Shown here: piece after piece, positions 50,365 to 59,831 of the stretch
Layout of the letters: every line of letters starts with the position of its first letter
Numbering within the stretch: the first letter of the stretch is position 1
Source of the DNA: Opitutaceae bacterium
GTDB lineage: Bacteria > Verrucomicrobiota > Verrucomicrobiia > Opitutales > Opitutaceae
Assembly (NCBI GenBank): GCA_947474995.1
Contig: CANJNJ010000005.1
Span: 1 to 64,000, forward strand
DNA: 64,000 nt
Direction: 5' to 3'
The notes under the pieces: model-generated
Databases searched by the model: none
What the model saw: only the letters and a program-made list of their open reading frames with translations
What the model was told of the DNA's origin: nothing
Program-made: the position numbers and the translations under genes

Positions 50365-53300
50365 CTACACCAAGTTCACATTCCCCGCGTATTTCTGAAT
50401 CGGACGCACGCCGACGTGCTTTTCCTTCAAGGCATGGATGCCGGCCACCGCGGCGGCCGCGCCGGTGATCGTCGTCATGATGCACACGTTGTGGGCATAC
50501 GCCGCCGACCGAATCGCGTTCTCATCGCGCCGCGGCACCATGCCGCCGGGCGTGTTGATAACCATCTGGATTTGCCCGTTCTTGATCAAGTCGACCGCAT
50601 GCGGCCGGCCCTCGGAGATTTTCGCGAGGCGCTTCACCTTCAACCCGGCATCGGCCAGGGTCTTCGCCGTACCGCTCGTGGAATAAAGCGCAAAGCCGAG
50701 AGCCTCGAGGTGCCGGGCGATTTCCACCGCCCGCGGCTTGTCGGCGTCTTTGACGGACATGAAGACATTCCCTTTCACCGGCAGTCCGGGCTTGGCCGCG
50801 GCCTGCGCCTTGGCAAAGGCCACGCCGAGGTCGTCGTCGATGCCCATGACCTCACCGGTCGAACGCATCTCGGGTCCCAGCGCAATCGTCGCCCCCGGAA
50901 AACGCACGAAGGGAAACACGGCCTCTTTCACGCACCAGTGCTTGGGTGTCTGCTCCCGGGTGAAGCCGAGGTCCTTGAGTTTCAGCCCCGTCATCACTTT
51001 CGCCGCCAGTTTGGCCAGCGGCACGCCAATGGCCTTCGCCACAAACGGCACGGTCCGCGACGCCCGGGGATTCACTTCCAGCACGTAGAGTTGGTCGCCC
51101 TTGATCGCGAACTGGATGTTCATCAGACCCACGACCTTGAGCTCGCGCGCGAGGGCGTAGGTCGCCCGCCGCACGGTGTTCAACATGTCCGGCGAGAGCG
51201 TGTGCGGCGGCATCACCATCGCAGCGTCACCCGAGTGCACGCCCGCATACTCGATGTGCTCGAGCATGCCGCCGACGACCGAGGTCTCGCCGTCGCTGAT
51301 GCAATCCACGTCGAGCTCGATCGCATCCTCGAGGAACTTGTCGATCAACACCGGTTTGCCGGGCATGACTTCGAAAACCTGCCGCACCACGGCCCGCAGT
51401 TCTTCCTCGCTGTAGAGGATGAACATGCCGCGGCCACCGAGCACGAAGGACGGACGCACCAGCACCGGGTAACCGATCTCGCCGGCACTCGTGATCGCCG
51501 CGGCCTCGGTGAGTGCGGTGCGATTGTCGGGCTGGCGGAGTTTCAGTTTTTCAAGAACCGCCACGAAGAGCTTCCGATCTTCCGCAATCTCGATGCTCTC
51601 CGGCGACGTGCCGATGATGTTCACGCCCTTCGCCTTCAAGGCCGTCGCGAGGTTGAGCGGGGTCTGACCGCCGAACTGCACGATCGCCCCGAAGCAGCCC
51701 TCCTGCTCATAAACCTCCAGTACGTCCTCGAGCGTGAGCGGTTCAAAATAAAGCCGGTCGCTCGTGTCGTAGTCGGTCGAAACCGTCTCGGGGTTTGAAT
51801 TGACCATCACGGTTTCGTACCCCGCCTCGCGCAGCGCAAAACTCGCGTGCACACAGCAGTAATCGAACTCGATGCCCTGCCCGATCCGGTTCGGCCCACC
51901 GCCGAGAATCATGATCTTCTTCTTGCCCTTGGGCGGCAGCACTTCGTTTTCGTCGCCGTAACTCGAATAATAGTAGGGCGTAAAGGCCTCGAACTCCGCC
52001 GCACAAGTGTCGACCAGGCGGTACGTGGTCTGGATGCCACGATGCTTCCGATTCGCCCGCACCGTCGAGAACTCGCTTTTCAGGAGGTGGGCGAGCTGCA
52101 CGTCGGAGAACCCAAACTGCTTGGCCCGGCGCAGCGTATCCGTGTCGACCGTCGCCAAGGTGTGCTTCTTCAGCGTCTCTTCCATCTCCCACACCTCGCG
52201 GAGCTGATGCAGGAACCACGGATCGATCTTCGTCAGATCGAAAACATTCTCCACGGAGTAGCCGGCGCGGAACGCGTGCCGAATATAGAATATCCGCTCC
52301 GCGTTGGGCGTGCCGAGCTTGGTGTTGAGAAATTCTTCCTCGAACGCCTCGTCGCCGCCGTACTTCCCGCCGCCCCCAAAGCCGCGCGCCCCGATTTCCA
52401 GCGAACGCAGGCACTTTTGGATCGATTCCTTGAAGGTCCGGCCAATCGCCATCGCCTCGCCCACGGACTTCATCGCCGAGGTCAGGGTCGCGTCCGCATC
52501 CGGAAACTTCTCGAACGTGAACCGTGGAATCTTGGTGACCACGTAATCGATGGTCGGCTCGAAGCTCGCCGGCGTGAGCCGCGTGATGTCGTTGCGCAGC
52601 TCGTCGAGCGTATAGCCCACGGCCAGCTTCGCCGCGATTTTCGCAATGGGAAACCCCGTGGCCTTCGACGCGAGCGCCGAGGAGCGCGACACGCGCGGAT
52701 TCATCTCGATGACGACCATCCGACCGGTCTCGGGGTCGACGGAAAACTGGATGTTCGAGCCGCCGGTCTCGACGCCAATCTCGCGGATGACCGCAAACGA
52801 TGCATCGCGCATCACCTGATATTCCTTGTCGCTCAGGGTCATGGCCGGCGCGACCGTGATCGAGTCGCCCGTGTGCACGCCCATCGGATCAAAGTTTTCG
52901 ATCGCGCAGATGACCACGCACTGGTCCTTGTGGTCGCGCATGACCTCCATCTCGTACTCTTTCCAGCCGAGCAGACACTCCTCGACGAGCACCTCATGCA
53001 CGGGCGAAAGGTCGATCCCGTTGGCGCAAATCTGCTCAAATTCCTCCTTGTTGTACGCGATGCCGCCGCCGCTGCCGCCAAGCGTGAAGGACGGACGGAT
53101 GATGAGCGGCAACATCCCCAGCTCTTCGGCCGCGGCCCGCGCTTCTTCCATCGATTTCACCGTCTTCGAACGGGCGACATCGAGGCCGATGCGGAGCATG
53201 CACTGCTTGAACAACTCGCGGTCCTCACCCTTGTTGATCGCATCCGGCTTCGCGCCGATCATTTCGACGCCGTACTTGGCGAGGATGCCCGCCTTGTGCA

Positions 53301-53604
53301 GTTCCATCGAAAGGTTCAACGCCGTCTGGCCACCCAGGGTCGGCAGCAGCGCAGAGGGTCGCTCGGCCGCGATGATTTTTTCCACGATTTCGAGCGTGAG
53401 CGGCTCGATATAGGTCACATCCGCGAACTCCGGATCCGTCATGATGGTGGCGGGATTGGAATTCACCAGGATGACACGATAACCCTCCTCGCGCAGCGCC
53501 TTGCACGCCTGCGTGCCGGAGTAATCGAACTCGCAGGCCTGGCCGATGACAATCGGACCGGCGCCGATAATGAGGATTGATTTCAGGTCAGAGCGTTTGG
53601 GCAT
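50365..53604 (-). CDS. carB: carbamoyl-phosphate synthase large subunit
   Basis: This 1079-residue protein has the usual CarB length and order: a carboxyphosphate ATP-grasp half at 1-400 ([49 protein letters not shown]), an oligomerisation domain, and a carbamoyl-phosphate ATP-grasp half ([39 protein letters not shown]). The C-terminal allosteric MGS-like domain ([12 protein letters not shown] ... [30 protein letters not shown]) follows. It makes carbamoyl phosphate for arginine and pyrimidines with ammonia from CarA, which is not in this window. The start at 53604 ([14 protein letters not shown]) matches the family N-terminus. Confidence 0.97.
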
Positions 53605-54011
53605 GGGCGCGGATTTCATCGAGGGTTGAGAGCCGCGAAACGGCGGGCAAGCGGGAAAGGAAAAATGAGGGAATTTGGGCAGTTTAAACTTTTGCGGGCC
53701 CGATTTCCCCTAGGGAGGCCATGACTTTGGCGTCCGGCGGCCTGCCGCCGCTTTTACGACAAGTTCCAGCTCGTCGCCACGGCCTATCGGCGCGCCGAGG
53801 CGAGACGCGGAGTGCGGCGCCACGTCGCCGCACTCCAAAGGAACGCCCGGTTCACCTCGACCCAACCAACTATACCGCCCCAAAAACTGGAAAAAGCTAG
53901 ACTCCGGCCTCCCGGCATAGGAATCATCTTCAACTTTCCCGTCGTCGGGGCGGTGCGATTGATTGCCACGTTGCGCAATCGGCTCCGACGCCAACGGGAC
54001 GGAAACACCCC
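53605..54011. other. 407-base intergenic region between divergent carB and cytochrome genes
   Basis: It must hold the carB promoter on the minus strand and that of the cytochrome/PQQ pair on the plus strand, but no convincing -35/-10 pair was found. It contains a loopless gagtgcggcg repeat (53809-53837) and a cggcggcctgccgccg palindrome near 53737. No open frame in it looks like a gene. Confidence 0.6.
53809..53837. repeat. gagtgcggcg / cgccgcactc palindrome
   Basis: ggagtgcggcgccacgtcgc and cgccgcactcc form a compact inverted repeat, a member of the same family as 15749-15814, in the carB upstream region. Confidence 0.75.
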
Positions 54012-55013
54012 ATGTTGTCCCGCTCTATCACCCTGCTGCTTGTCCTCGCGCCTCTGGCGCTGCGCGCCCAACCGGCGCCGGCCACTCCGGCCACTCCGGC
54101 CGCTCCGGCCGCTCCCATCGAGCACGGCACCGAGATCGTTGTCGCGCCTGGTCCCGCCAACCTCGATCAAATCATCAAGAACCCCGCCAGCCTCGCGGAA
54201 GGCCGGCGGCTTTTCCAAACTCATTGCACCTCCTGCCACGGACCCAACGGCGAAGGCGCACGCGGCGCGTCCCTCCTCTCGCCCAATCTGCCCCGCGTCG
54301 CCGAAGCGGCCGTAGCGCCTGCCGAAGCACCCGGCGGAGGTGGCGGTCGTGGTCGGGGCCGCGGGGCCAATGCCGCCGCCGCGACGGACGGTCCTCCGGT
54401 GTCGCCGTACGACCGCGCCCTGCAACAAATCATCCAGCGCGGCATCCCGGCCACTGAAATGCAGCCCCCTCGCCTGCAGCCCGGCGAACTCCCGCTCGTC
54501 GCCGCCTTCGTCAAATCGCTGGGCCAGCTCCCGCCCGAGCCCGTTCCCGGCAACGCCAGCCACGGCGCCGAACTCTTCAAGACCAAGGGCGCCTGCATGA
54601 CCTGCCACATGATCAGGGGCGAAGGCGCCGTCATCGGGCCTGACCTCTCCGACGTGGGGCGGGCCCGCGGGGTCGCCTACATGCGCCGCGCCCTGACCGA
54701 TCCCAACGCCGACGTACCCAAGGCGTTCCAAGCCTACCGCAACGATATCAGCCTGCCGCAGAATTTCCTGTTTGTCCGCGCGGTCACCAAGAACGGCGAG
54801 ACCATCGGCGGCGTACGCGTGAACGAGGACACGTTCTCGATTCAATTGCGCGATCTCACCGGCAAGGTGCGTTCGTTCTTCAAGTCGGAGCTGTCCGAAC
54901 TGCACAAGGAATGGGGCCAGTCCCCGATGCCGAACTATTCGGCCGTCTTCGCGCCAGGCGAATTGGATGATGTCGTCGCCTTTCTCGTATCGCAGCGCGG
55001 AGGCAACAAATGA
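54012..55013 (+). CDS. exported dihaem cytochrome c, partner of PQQ dehydrogenase
   Basis: This 333-residue protein has a signal peptide (MLSRSITLLLVLAPLALRAQ). Two CxxCH haem sites are CTSCH at 72-76 and CMTCH at 195-199. A Gly/Arg-rich insertion (PGGGGGRGRGRGAN, about 107-120) interrupts the first domain, an unusual feature. The second domain, with GPDLSDVGRARGVAYMRRALTDPNADVPKAFQAY and ending PMPNYSAVFAPGELDDVVAFLVSQ, resembles the haem domains of Planctomycetes-Verrucomicrobia cytochromes. Its stop overlaps the start of the PQQ dehydrogenase by four bases, so it is the likely electron acceptor of that enzyme in the periplasm. Confidence 0.9.
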   Translation: MLSRSITLLLVLAPLALRAQPAPATPATPAAPAAPIEHGTEIVVAPGPANLDQIIKNPASLAEGRRLFQTHCTSCHGPNGEGARGASLLSPNLPRVAEAAVAPAEAPGGGGGRGRGRGANAAAATDGPPVSPYDRALQQIIQRGIPATEMQPPRLQPGELPLVAAFVKSLGQLPPEPVPGNASHGAELFKTKGACMTCHMIRGEGAVIGPDLSDVGRARGVAYMRRALTDPNADVPKAFQAYRNDISLPQNFLFVRAVTKNGETIGGVRVNEDTFSIQLRDLTGKVRSFFKSELSELHKEWGQSPMPNYSAVFAPGELDDVVAFLVSQRGGNK

Positions 55014-56686
55014 AATTTTTCCATTTGGTCGGTTCTGCCGCGCATTTCGTCACTTCGAAGGGCTGCTGGGTCGCGGCCGGCTCGCTCTCGTTTGGCCTCG
55101 CGTCGCTGGCTTCGGGGCAGTCGCCCATGCCTCCTCCCCAGGTCCAGGTGCCCTATCAGCGGATCCTGAAGTCGTCCGATGATCCCGGCAATTGGCTGAC
55201 GTACGGCGGTAATTATTCCAACCACCGGTTCTCGAAGCTCACGCAAATCACGCCAGCGAATGTGGCCCAACTCACGCCCAAGTGGATTTACCAGCAGGCG
55301 GACACCTCCAAGTGGGAAGTCACCCCGCTCGTCGTCGACGGCGTCATCTATGTCAGCGAGCGGCCCAACATCGTCACGGCCTTGGACGGACGCACCGGCC
55401 GGCCGCTGTGGAACTATCGCCGCCCTTTCCCGACTGATGTTTCGATCTGCTGCGGCACGCCGAATCGCGGCCTCGCGATTCTGGGTGATTCCATCTATCT
55501 CGCCACGTTTGACGACCATCTGGTTTGCCTCGACGCGAACACCGGGAAGGAGCGTTGGGACGAAGTCGTGGTGGACTACAAGCTGGGTTATTCCATGACC
55601 CTGGCCCCGCTCGCGGTGAAAGACAAAATCATCGTTGGCGTTTCCGGCGGCGAATTCGGCATCCGGGGATTTCTGGCCGCCCACGACGCCAAAACCGGCA
55701 AGCGAGCCTGGCAATTCTTCACGGTGCCCGGCCCCGGCGAGCCCGGCAACGAAACCTGGAGCGGCGAAAGCTGGAAAACCAGCGGTTCCCCGACGTGGCT
55801 GACGGGCGCCTACGACCCGGATCTAAACCTGGTTTACTGGGGAGTCGGGAATCCGAGTCCCGATTACAACGGCGATGTCCGGAAGGGCGACAACCTCTAC
55901 TCGTGTTCCGAAATCGCGCTCGACGCCGATACGGGCAAGCTCAAGTGGCACTTCCAATTCACACCGCACGACGTGCACGACTGGGATTCGAATCAGATTC
56001 CCGTCCTCGTCGACGCCCAGATTGGCGGGCAGCCCCGCAAGCTTCTGGTCAAGGCAAACCGCAACGCGTTCTACTACGTCTTGGATCGCACGAACGGCGA
56101 GTTCATCACCGGCGCGCCCTTCTCCAAGCAGACGTGGGCGAGCGGCCTCGACAAGAAGGGCCGGCCGATTCTTCTGCCGGACAAGGAACCCACGGCCGAA
56201 GGCGTTCTCGTTTACCCCGGCCTCGAGGGGGCGACCAATTGGTTGAGTCCCGCGTATAACCCGATGACAGGGCTCTTTTACGTCCAGACCAAGGAAGACT
56301 ACGGCCAGTATTATTACAAAATCCCCGGCCCACACATGGTGGCGGGACATTTCGAGAACGGGGGCGGGCGCAATGTGATGGGTGAGGAACCCTACGGTGC
56401 GCTCAAAGCCATCGAAGCCACGACGGGAAAGATCCGCTGGGAGTTTCGGCAACAGATTCCCGGAGTCGCCTCGCCCAACGCCGGCGTCCTTACGACGGCC
56501 AGCGGCTTGGTCATCAGCGGCACGCGCGAAGGTCACGTCTTCGCGCTCGATGCGACCACCGGCAAAGTGCTTTGGAACTTCAACACCGGCGGCGCCATTT
56601 GGAGCGGCGCGGTGACGTTCCTGATCGACGGCAAACAGTGTATCGCCATCGCCGCCGGCTCGGGGCTGTACGTGTTCGGGCTGTAG
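55010..56686 (+). CDS. PQQ-dependent alcohol dehydrogenase, lanthanide-type signature
   Basis: This 558-residue periplasmic eight-bladed propeller has a signal peptide (FVTSKGCWVAAGSLSFGLASLASGQ region). The family hallmarks are present: vicinal Cys147-Cys148 (SICCGTPNRG), metal ligands Glu215 (SGGEFGIRG) and Asn281 (NPSPDYNGD), and catalytic Asp324 in TPHDVHDWDSNQ. Asp326, two residues after the catalytic Asp, is the position that is Asp in lanthanide-dependent enzymes (XoxF, PedH) and Ala, Ser or Thr in calcium enzymes. Several W-motif blades (GRTGRPLWN, ANTGKERWD, ATTGKIRWEF, ATTGKVLWNF) follow. The substrate is an alcohol or aldehyde by family. It is coupled to the dihaem cytochrome gene. 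Confidence 0.93.
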   Translation: MKFFHLVGSAAHFVTSKGCWVAAGSLSFGLASLASGQSPMPPPQVQVPYQRILKSSDDPGNWLTYGGNYSNHRFSKLTQITPANVAQLTPKWIYQQADTSKWEVTPLVVDGVIYVSERPNIVTALDGRTGRPLWNYRRPFPTDVSICCGTPNRGLAILGDSIYLATFDDHLVCLDANTGKERWDEVVVDYKLGYSMTLAPLAVKDKIIVGVSGGEFGIRGFLAAHDAKTGKRAWQFFTVPGPGEPGNETWSGESWKTSGSPTWLTGAYDPDLNLVYWGVGNPSPDYNGDVRKGDNLYSCSEIALDADTGKLKWHFQFTPHDVHDWDSNQIPVLVDAQIGGQPRKLLVKANRNAFYYVLDRTNGEFITGAPFSKQTWASGLDKKGRPILLPDKEPTAEGVLVYPGLEGATNWLSPAYNPMTGLFYVQTKEDYGQYYYKIPGPHMVAGHFENGGGRNVMGEEPYGALKAIEATTGKIRWEFRQQIPGVASPNAGVLTTASGLVISGTREGHVFALDATTGKVLWNFNTGGAIWSGAVTFLIDGKQCIAIAAGSGLYVFGL

Positions 56687-56812: not shown

Positions 56813-56867
56813 GGTAGGGACGCCTCTCCGCAGGCGTCCGCGGACGGCTCGGAGAGCCGTCCCTGCC
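56813..56867. repeat. ggtagggacgcc inverted repeat
   Basis: ggtagggacgcctctccgca and ggctcggagagccgtccctg pair as imperfect arms around ggcgtccgcgg. It is one of several unrelated repeats stacked between the PQQ gene and the regulator gene. Confidence 0.7.
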
Positions 56868-56903
56868 CACGTTGCTCACTTCCGCGCCCAGCACCTTGGC
56901 CGC
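56867..56903 (-). repeat. diverged duplicate of the regulator gene's 3' end
   Basis: These 37 bases match 56958-56994, the last codons of the gene at 56953-58209, at 32 positions in the same orientation (offset 91). On the minus strand the copy encodes AKVLGAEVSNVG against AKVLGVDVSKLG in the gene. Confidence 0.8.
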
Positions 56904-56952
56904 GCAAGGGACTGCCCGGCCCACCAGGCAAGCAACACCGTTCGGCCGCCCC

Positions 56953-58209
56953 CTACCCCAGCTTGCTCACGTCCACGCCCAGCACTTTGGCCGCGGCAGC
57001 CTTGTCGCCACGGCAGGCGTGCAGGACCATGTCGATATACTGCTTTTCCTGCCCAAGAAGATATTCCGACAGCGCCGGCCAGTGCTTCAGTTCCCTCAAC
57101 CGCAGCGGCAATTGCTGCGACGTGATGACTCTCGTTTCCGTCGTCGCGGCGATCTTCGAGACCACCTGATAGAGTTCGGTGAGATTACCCGGCCAGTGAT
57201 ACGCCGCCATCACGACCAGCGCGTCATCCGTGAACTCAATTAAGTTCGATTCAAAGAGCGGATTGGCCGCTTGCGACGTGTAGTGCTTCACCAGCAGCGG
57301 AATGTCCTCTGCGCGTTCGCGCAACGGCGGCATCTGCACCGGGAGGGAGGCGACGCGGTAAAAGAGCTCGTCGTGGAACGTGCCTTCGTCGACCAGTTTC
57401 TCAAGGTCCACGCTCGTGGTGCAAATCAACCGAAACCCGTGGGCGGTGTTGCGCAGGACACTGACCAGTTCCTTCTGCACCGGCAGCGAGAGACATTCCA
57501 GGTGCTGAAGAAAAAAAGTGCCTCCCTTGGCGGCCTTCACCCACGCGCCTCCCTCCCCGTTCTGGCCCAGCAGCCCCTCGCGAAAATTTATTTCGGAACT
57601 CAGGGCGCAGTCGATCCGCACAAAGGTCGATTCCGGCCCACCACTCGCCGTGTGAAGAATTTCTGCCACGGCGCTCTTGCCGGTTCCGGTTTCCCCGATG
57701 AGCAGCACCGGACTGCGCACCGTCGCGAGTTTTTTGACCTGGGAAATCAGCTTCGTCAGTTTCGGGCCGTTGCCAATCATCCGGCTTTCGATGTCCGTGG
57801 CCTTCACGCCCGGCGCGAGACCCGTGAGCGCCCGCTCCGCCTGAAACTTGCGGAATTCGAGCCCACGCCGAAGGGTGGCAATCAGTTCGTCGACCCGGAA
57901 GGGCTTCTGCAGGTAATCGAACGCCCCATACTTCAACGCCTGCACCGCGCTTTCCGTGGAAGCGTAGGCCGTCATGATGATGACGACGGCATTGGGGTCG
58001 TACAGCTTCAGCTGTTTGAGCAGCGTGATCCCGTCCATCGGTTTCATGTCGATGTCGGCCAGCACGAGGTCGTACTTGTCCGCCTTGTAGCGCACGAGCC
58101 CTTTTTCTCCATCGGTGGCGAAGGAGGTGGCAAAACCCGTGGGCTGGATGACGGCCTCGAGCATCTCGTGGATCGAGACGAGATCGTCGACAATGAGTAC
58201 GGCGGGCAT
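56953..58209 (-). CDS. NtrC-like response regulator with degenerate AAA+ domain
   Basis: This 418-residue protein has a receiver domain at 1-120 with Asp8-Asp9, phospho-acceptor Asp52 (VLADIDM), Thr80 and Lys102 (QKPF). The AAA+ domain at about 140-365 keeps Walker A (GETGTGKS, 172-179). It has TFFLQHL where Walker B (usually TLFLDEI) should be, and the sigma-54-contact GAFTGA loop is absent; the region reads LLGQNGEGGAWVKAAKGG. WPGNLTEL and the arginine region FYRVASLPVQMPPLRERAEDIP are kept. The C-terminal Fis-type helix-turn-helix stops at AAKVLGVDVSKLG, before the recognition helix ends. It is probably not a normal sigma-54 activator. It lies 134 bases from the broken pilC gene. Confidence 0.88.
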   Translation of the reverse strand: MPAVLIVDDLVSIHEMLEAVIQPTGFATSFATDGEKGLVRYKADKYDLVLADIDMKPMDGITLLKQLKLYDPNAVVIIMTAYASTESAVQALKYGAFDYLQKPFRVDELIATLRRGLEFRKFQAERALTGLAPGVKATDIESRMIGNGPKLTKLISQVKKLATVRSPVLLIGETGTGKSAVAEILHTASGGPESTFVRIDCALSSEINFREGLLGQNGEGGAWVKAAKGGTFFLQHLECLSLPVQKELVSVLRNTAHGFRLICTTSVDLEKLVDEGTFHDELFYRVASLPVQMPPLRERAEDIPLLVKHYTSQAANPLFESNLIEFTDDALVVMAAYHWPGNLTELYQVVSKIAATTETRVITSQQLPLRLRELKHWPALSEYLLGQEKQYIDMVLHACRGDKAAAAKVLGVDVSKLG

Positions 58210-58343: not shown

Positions 58344-59536
58344 CTACTGGAGACCGCCGGCGACGGCACCGAGTTGGAAGATGGGGAGGAACATCGCCAT
58401 GACGATGCCGCCGACCACGACACCGAGAAACACAATCAGCATCGGCTCGATCAGGGAGGTCAGCGCGCCGACCGTCGCCTCGCACTCCACGTCGTAGAAG
58501 TCCGCGATCTTGTTCATCATGCCGTCCACGTTACCCGTGGATTCCCCCGCCTTCACCATGTGTTTCATCATCGGCGGGAAAAATTCGTTGGCGGCCAGCA
58601 CTTCGGACACTTGTCCGCCCTGGCTGACGTGCTTGGCGATTTCCTCGCAGGCGTCTTCGATCTGCACCTTGCCGCTGGCCGAGGACACGATTTCCAGCGT
58701 GCGCAGAATCGGCACGCCGGAACGAATGAGCGTGGCGTAGGTACGGCAGAACCGCGAAAGCGTAATCTTGTGGACGAGGTTGCCGAAAATCGGCGCCCTT
58801 ACGAGAAACTGGTCCTTCACCCGACGACCCTTGGGCGTTGCGACGAATTTGCCGACCCCCACATAGGTGCCATACGCGCCGAGGCCGATGGCCCACCACC
58901 ATGCCTTCATGAAATTACTGAGGTCGATCAGAAATTGCGTCGGCGCCGGCAGCTTGGCCCCGAAGTCTTTAAACATCGCCGCGAACACGGGAATGACGAA
59001 GATCAGCAGCACGTTTACGAGGGCCGTCGCGAGGCCGATGACCGCGATCGGGTAAGTCATGGCTGACTTGACCTTCTTGGTCAGCTTGACGGTCGACTCG
59101 AAATAGCCGGCCACCTTGGCCAAGATTTCCGAGAGACCACCGCTCGCCTCGCCCGCCTCGACCATCGAGGTGAAAAGATTGGGAAAGCTGTTGGGGAATT
59201 TCCTGACCGCGGACGAGAAGGAATTACCTTGGGAGATGTCGCCACGGACATCCCGGATGACGATGCGGAAAATGGGATCTTCGGTCTGGTGGGATCTTCG
59301 GTCTGGTCCTGCAGGGCCTCGAGACATTGCACCAGCGGCAGACCGGCGGTGAGCAGCGAGGCGATCTGTTGGGTGAAAAGAGCCAGTTCGCCAAGTGGGA
59401 GCTTGTACGTCTTGGATTTCTTCTCCAGCGCCTTCTGTTTGGCGAGGGCTTGGGCGGCCTTGACGCTACTGCCTTTTTTCTGAGCGGACTGCGAACGGGA
59501 GGTTTGCCCCGGGGTGGCCGAAGATAGCAATGCCAT
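58344..59536 (-). pseudogene. pilC: type IV pilus/type II secretion inner-membrane protein PilC/GspF, frameshifted
   Basis: The start at 59536 gives residues MALLSSATPGQ ... ELALFTQQIASLLTAGLPLVQCLEALQDQTEDP, the normal N-terminal T2SF domain start. The rest of the protein continues in another frame as PIFRIVIRDVRGDISQGNSFSSAVRKFPNSFPNLF, with the first membrane pair (MTYPIAVIGLATALVNVLLIFVIPVF) and the second T2SF domain (LSRFCRTYATLIRSGVPILRTLEIVSSASG ... FLPIFQLGAVAGGL). The shift is caused by an exact tandem duplication of 17 bases, 59274-59290 and 59291-59307; deleting one copy restores one continuous frame of about 390 codons. PilC anchors pilus assembly in the inner membrane. Confidence 0.93.
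59274..59307. repeat. exact 17-base tandem duplication inside pilC
   Basis: gggatcttcggtctggt occurs twice in a row without mismatch. Since 17 is not a multiple of three, the second copy changes the reading frame of pilC. Confidence 0.97.
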
Positions 59537-59757: not shown

Positions 59758-59831
59758 TGGAGCGGGCGGACGGAATCGAACCGACGAGACCTGCTTGGAA
59801 GGCAGGAGTTTTACCACTAAACTACGCCCGC
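59758..59831 (-). tRNA. tRNA-Gly (anticodon TCC)
   Basis: On the minus strand the acceptor stem is GCGGGCG/CGCCCGC, the D arm is TAGTTTAGTGGTAAAAC, the anticodon stem-loop is CTGCC TTCCAAG CAG with anticodon TCC, and the T arm is GGTTCGATTCC. Discriminator T and an encoded CCA (59758-59760) follow. Confidence 0.96.

Follow-up and report, generated by a model that had tools for sequence, protein, structure and literature searches.

The window analyzed here, a 64,000-nucleotide stretch at positions 1 to 64,000 of contig CANJNJ010000005.1 from an Opitutaceae bacterium, contains a minus-strand ORF (56953-58209, start ATG, stop TAG) that encodes a protein of 418 amino acids. Pfam matches on this protein are Response_reg (residues 4-113), Sigma54_activat (144-291), AAA_lid_14 (297-374), and HTH_8 (388-414). 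Along the contig, the features at the locus are:

50365-53619, minus strand: carB, the usual downstream neighbor, an ORF of 1084 aa that is 79% identical to the carB of related locus L142.
54012-55013 and 55010-56686: two opposite-strand ORFs between the regulator and carB, of 333 aa (with two CXXCH motifs) and 558 aa.
56953-58209, minus strand: degenerate PilR/NtrC-type response regulator, 418 aa, called from its ORF, translation, Pfam matches, and 109 related loci.
56956-57084, minus strand: truncated Fis-type helix-turn-helix (HTH) tail, residues 376-418, with 4 residues of the recognition helix left.
57172-57189, minus strand: sensor II segment GNLTEL, residues 341-346, with Thr in place of Arg at 344.
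57355-57378, minus strand: arginine-finger segment FHDELFYR, residues 278-285, with the first Arg gone and the second present.
57499-57519, minus strand: former Walker B, TFFLQHL, residues 231-237, with D-E changed to Q-H at 235-236.
57541-57567, minus strand: site of the deleted L1/GAFTGA loop, GQNGEGGAW, residues 215-223, with W223 invariant in 91 proteins.
57673-57696, minus strand: Walker A, GETGTGKS, residues 172-179, kept.
57856-58209, minus strand: receiver domain, residues 1-118, with D8, D9, D52, T80, and K102 intact and a family-diagnostic H14 in helix 1.
58344-59536, minus strand: pilC (T2SSF family, for which gspF is also a possible name), the conserved upstream neighbor, frameshifted in the contig.
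59273-59306, no strand assigned: an exact tandem duplication of 17 bp, which puts pilC out of frame, as seen from the reading frames.

The motif calls come from an alignment of the window protein to NtrC1 and other solved activators. Among the features of a sigma-54 activator (bEBP), the AAA+ fold and Walker A are present, and the GAFTGA loop, the Walker B Asp-Glu pair, and a complete HTH are absent. The sensor I Asn (S266), the first arginine finger (H279), and the sensor II Arg (T344) are missing as well, with the second arginine finger and the phospho-pocket residues of the receiver still in place. A first-pass annotation, made from the sequence alone, had described an intact receiver and Walker A, a missing GAFTGA, a replaced Walker B Asp-Glu (TFFLQHL), and a shortened Fis-type HTH, and on every one of these points the alignment and the Pfam matches agree: D8, D9, D52, T80, K102, and GETGTGKS are all there, the loop is deleted, Q-H stands at 235-236, and the HTH_8 match stops at profile position 32 of 42, so that the protein ends inside the recognition helix. 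AlphaFold2 modeling from 44 related sequences gave a best model with a mean pLDDT of 86.6 (67.8-83.3 for the other four) that stops 4 residues into this helix. The first matches of this model in Foldseek were Brucella NtrX, NtrC1, LuxO, NtrC4, VpsR, and FleQ. The whole-chain TM score was only about 0.5, the arrangement of the domains being different; against isolated AAA+ domains it was about 0.8 by target length.

The gene neighborhood is well conserved. All 61 related loci longer than 6 kb have pilC directly upstream of the regulator and on its strand. The distance from the end of the pilC match to the regulator's start codon is 54-271 bp, and these loci have no kinase gene in that gap of at most 271 bp. 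The gene encodes a T2SSF protein whose nearest models are PilC and GspF; because its scores fall below both cut-offs, we use the name pilC by resemblance, and pilus and type II secretion functions both fit. Downstream of the regulator, a family of about 1,079 aa, identified as carB by NCBIfam in L142, is present in 50 of the 61 long loci. In the window, carB, whose match spans 50392-53658, sits 3.3 kb beyond the regulator, with the two opposite-strand ORFs between. Next to this two-ORF insert, positions 56866-56904 repeat 39 bp of the regulator's 3' end (56957-56995; 87%), and a minus-strand tRNA-Gly gene (tcc) lies upstream of pilC at 59758-59831. The window pilC is read as two ORFs of one gene, the main piece being 86% identical to P0002, and four relatives (L031, L032, L033, and L111) align to it in one main piece. 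The duplication may be either a real mutation or an assembly error, and unless it is the latter, the frameshift means that the regulator in this genome may be orphaned.

To follow these losses through close relatives, a related-locus search from which the best 80 of 339 loci were kept (68-88% identical, nearly all full length, with titles mostly Opitutaceae, Opitutae, or Verrucomicrobia) was extended by a genome search to 109 loci and 94 distinct proteins. Four of the 94 were left out for X residues, a missing stop codon, or a truncated start, and the remaining 90 relatives, complete and 62-89% identical, were compared together with the window protein as a set of 91. None of the 91 contains GAFTGA or the Walker B D-E pair, positions 279 and 344 are never Arg, and 84 of the proteins are 417-419 aa long. 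Asn survives at the sensor I column in 13; 81 retain the Walker A Lys, which is R or H in the other 10. D8, D9, D52, T80, K102, and W223 are invariant, and the second arginine finger (R285) is found in 91/91 of this close set and in 26 of 29 AAA+-bearing members from across the order. The earlier expectation that such a protein could not contact sigma-54 and would not be expected to hydrolyze ATP is thus well supported at the level of motifs, the key losses being common to 91/91.

Selection on these proteins is strongly purifying. The median dN/dS is 0.051 for the whole protein, 0.026 for the receiver, 0.050 for the AAA+ domain with its lid, and 0.076 for the tail, from 27 of 28 close pairs (those with overall dS below 1.5), which are not mutually independent; pairs with the window protein gave 0.06-0.09, rough values since their dS is near 1. 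Mean pairwise identity is 0.871 in the receiver versus 0.697 in the AAA+ domain for the close set (n = 91) and 0.685 versus 0.491 for order-wide members (n = 24). Intact activators show the reverse, both those of the pilC-linked type (n = 13, 0.622 versus 0.707) and others (n = 18, 0.460 versus 0.603), and since the sets differ in divergence, it is only the rank order of receiver and AAA+ domain that is compared. Conservation has moved toward the receiver, opposite to what is seen in intact homologs, and the strong preservation of the receiver half in relatives points to a probable new job over decay. The first-pass annotation had leaned the same way and had named an ortholog comparison and dN/dS as checks, adding that close relatives with intact motifs would mean simple decay. 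Its preference for a new function is well supported by key losses that are shared by the 90 complete relatives and the window protein under such selection (median 0.051), and in the sets compared, intact versions at pilC occur only in distant lineages.

The same losses extend across the order, in which the degenerate proteins have been cut down to different degrees. GAFTGA is absent from all 29 AAA+-bearing members and present, as such or as a close variant, in all 31 intact comparators; the Walker B Glu is found in 0/29, versus D and E in 31/31; and the end of the recognition helix, judged by a crude end pattern, is found in 0 of 24 full-length or coiled-coil forms versus 29 of 31 intact activators. 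A full-length form with a truncated HTH, whose first helices are still conserved, occurs in the window's family, in most of the f24 proteins read, and in f9. In f8 g55 and f24 g64 the HTH is wholly absent (374-377 aa), and in f5 g54 its end is replaced by an extension (525-528 aa) that appears coiled-coil-like by eye. In a fourth form the AAA+ domain has been excised, leaving a receiver and tail of 173-184 aa, in one genome of the window's family (G033) and five of f20 (G118, G138, G150, G104, and G128). A protein found at two loci (L076 and L128) is longer in one copy, where the reading frame continues to 537 aa and adds a C-terminal extension. Of the 35 proteins compared, 34 retain the receiver pocket (D, D, D, T/S, K), Thr80 being Ser in 5 of the 6 AAA-less forms; the exception, which has lost D8, D52, and K102, is a second, more divergent copy in G077 (L191), around which no pilC was found within the fetched stretch. 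Receiver helix 1 carries a signature of its own, with H14 in 34/35 and L10 in 31/35 degenerate proteins, versus 0/31 for both in intact activators. As relatives lack the HTH or the whole AAA+ domain, the receiver, rather than the DNA- or ATP-binding part, looks like the working unit. Since AAA-less forms still carry the tail, it is more than debris, and the survival of Walker A in most full-length members suggests that nucleotide binding may still matter there.

We examined how far regulator and pilC occur together in 273 genomes of the order. The family profile matched 50 at 1e-70, of which 6 (1e-71 to 1e-74) were set aside as intact-type activators, three after their loop was read (L210 in G039, L212 in G056, and L211 in G091) and three by score alone (G089, G171, and G207). 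The regulator is thus present in 44 genomes, the specific pilC (1e-95) in 94, and both in 43; the exception is G133, with a regulator and no pilC, whose locus (L200) is cut by the contig edge. Nine genomes of the window's family have neither a full-length regulator nor the specific pilC (G007, G028, G031, G136, G176, G239, G276, G288, and G296), and the relatives search found no full-length copy in G007, G028, G031, G033, and G036. Joint loss of this kind could come from adjacency alone. G033 has pilC with the AAA-less form only. In G120 the two genes lie apart: the 9-kb stretch that holds the regulator (L187) is free of pilC, and the pilC of that genome (L242) is not followed by a regulator. 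In G244 the regulator is a pseudogene beside an intact pilC, which rules out co-decay of the two there, the regulator alone being broken. The gene after pilC was read in 24 of 51 sampled genomes that have the specific pilC and no full-length regulator (G033 lies outside this sample): 5 encode AAA-less receivers, 1 is a pseudogene, 1 is HisKA-like, 1 is HATPase-like, and 1 (G039) meets a contig edge. In the other 15 (from f3, f4, f6, f11, f13, f20, f21, and f22) what follows pilC does not match the regulator; PilC can thus do without the regulator in some genomes.

Intact activators in other, distant lineages of the phylum point to where the family came from. We read 21 distant loci (L206 and L214-L233), picked for a high family-profile score, and all of their activators have GAFTGA or GSFTGA. 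The activator directly follows pilC on the same strand in 10 (gap up to about 205 bp) and lies farther after it in 3; in the remaining 8, pilC is absent from the fetched stretch. In two of the three loci with the larger distance (L215 and L218), pilC and the activator are separated by the gene of a HisKA kinase, which also matches the PilS-type transmembrane domain below threshold. In Geobacter, according to an excerpt of one paper, pilB, pilT4, pilC, pilS, pilR, and pilA lie together (PMC5065972). Because intact activators follow distant pilC genes, with a PilS-like kinase between them twice, and because pilC, pilS, and pilR cluster in Geobacter, the regulator's ancestor was probably PilR. 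In an unrooted tree, from which the six AAA-less forms were left out, the 29 degenerate proteins that bear an AAA+ domain group as a single clade (100/100). This tree neither places the clade inside the pilC-linked intact activators nor rejects such a placement (AU p = 0.315). Within the order, the HisKA-like protein of G038 (L238, 1828-2595) and the HATPase-like protein of G119 (L280, 1642-2529) directly follow pilC where the regulator is absent, and each is a possible PilS remnant; phosphorelay parts thus recur at the site. The G038 protein was considered as a shared kinase partner and rejected, having no close homolog in 33 other genomes (6 weak matches).

Absence of sigma-54 is not supported as the cause of the degeneration, since sigma-54 is present in 53 of 56 genomes tested, the window's own included. 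The three genomes with no match to the sigma-54 DNA-binding domain (G113, G133, and G145; 75-90% complete) belong to f8 g55 and carry the HTH-less form; G067 and G099 of the same genus do have sigma-54, and the absence in the three may reflect incompleteness. In addition to sigma-54, the window's genome encodes two activators with an intact loop (GSFTGA). A further ORF of this genome (70-2418 of L004, from C20) is RtcR-like, with an RtcR match just under the cut-off, a sigma-54 activator domain, and an HTH_8 match; GAFTGA is absent and its Walker B is changed (GGTLTLIKI).

The reading that we favor, and to which we give an even chance, is that the regulator descends from a sigma-54 activator at the pilus locus and is now a phosphorylation-controlled protein-protein switch acting on the pilus machinery. 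That ancestral locus would have encoded a type IV pilus and been of the pilC-pilS-pilR type. In this genome's order, sigma-54 contact, ATP hydrolysis, and DNA recognition would then have been lost, with the phospho-acceptor receiver kept under strong selection. A kinase, none having been found beside the regulator, would phosphorylate D52, and the receiver would then bind a component of the pilus or pseudopilus machinery, PilC or its motor being the simplest choice. Where remnants of the AAA+ domain and tail survive, they would act as scaffold or dimer contacts. Dependence on phosphorylation is plausible from the invariant receiver pocket. A broader proposal, which we hold more tentatively and rate somewhat below an even chance, is that an activator of pilus-gene transcription became, without leaving its locus, a phospho-switch acting directly on the machine to which the adjacent gene belongs, with the stages of its dismantling preserved in the order: the full-length pseudo-activator, the HTH-less form, the coiled-coil-extended form, and the AAA+-less receiver with tail. 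If true, this would be a documented passage from a transcription factor to a protein-level regulator of the type IV pilus motor.

A first alternative, which we consider unlikely, is that the protein still regulates transcription, at sigma-70 promoters, binding DNA through the shortened tail or another surface. Precedents for GAFTGA-less regulators on sigma-70 promoters, as described in excerpts of two papers, are Rhodobacter capsulatus NtrC and HupR, Caulobacter NtrC, and VpsR (PMC10274813, PMC3162934). The closest folds include VpsR and Brucella NtrX, the latter likewise without the loop in the alignment, and the first HTH helices of the family remain conserved. Against such a role, the recognition helix is cut off, and the members from f8 g55 and f24 g64 have no HTH at all.

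Somewhat less probable again is a phosphate sink or competitor, in which the receiver drains phosphate from a kinase that also serves another regulator, the remainder of the protein being scaffold. Kinases usually dock at the helix 1 region of the receiver, and this is where the signature of H14 and L10 sits; among the intact forms seen beside pilC, moreover, no part other than the receiver is common to all. No cognate kinase was identified, however, and the conservation of the AAA+ remnant (0.70 identity, dN/dS 0.05) exceeds what a sink would need. Poisoning or tuning of intact sigma-54 activators through mixed AAA+ rings is improbable. The genome does retain sigma-54 and two GSFTGA activators with which such rings could be formed, and the second arginine finger is nearly always kept (91/91 and 26/29 order-wide), but relatives without the AAA+ domain still occupy the same position, this domain has changed more quickly than the receiver, and the two intact activators of the genome both group apart from the pilC-linked type. 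Decay into a pseudogene, suggested by the many missing catalytic residues, the broken G244 copy, and the frameshifted window pilC, is highly improbable and we reject it, as it is contradicted by a dN/dS of 0.05, an open frame at conserved length, and a receiver pocket invariant in 91 proteins.

The family also suggests an as yet unstudied way of controlling type IV pili or pseudopili in Verrucomicrobiota. In the open-access literature, searched by title and the start of the abstract, we found no degenerate PilR or pilC-linked GAFTGA-less regulator in Verrucomicrobiota among the matches listed. Of known systems, PilR is the most direct comparison, sharing with the window regulator the receiver-AAA+-Fis layout and the place after pilC; in two distant loci a PilS-like kinase gene separates pilC from the activator. 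Unlike PilR, the window regulator has lost GAFTGA, the Walker B pair, the first arginine finger, the sensor II Arg, and the recognition helix, and no PilS gene was seen beside it. The name "sigma-54-dependent regulator" that the domain matches invite is very likely wrong.

An NtrC-type fold without the sigma-54 loop is likewise found in R. capsulatus NtrC and HupR, Caulobacter NtrC, VpsR, TyrR, and Brucella NtrX. To our knowledge, the characterized GAFTGA-less activators still bind DNA, through a complete HTH. The family described here differs from them in lacking the Walker B pair and the recognition helix, and its relatives drop whole domains; Caulobacter NtrC, according to an excerpt of the work on it, needs its Walker A and B residues (PMC10274813). 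The proposed likeness to single-domain response regulators is a protein contact mediated by the receiver, and one such regulator is said, in the excerpted text of its report, to activate a phosphoglycosyl transferase (PMC12802240). Unlike these, the window protein retains its AAA+ domain and tail, and only some of its relatives approach a single-domain form. GAFTGA-less regulators as such are known; what sets this family apart, as judged from sequence, is that it has also lost the Walker B pair along with most of its recognition helix and that whole domains have been excised in relatives. This makes the family a natural deletion series for asking what a receiver does once its output is gone.
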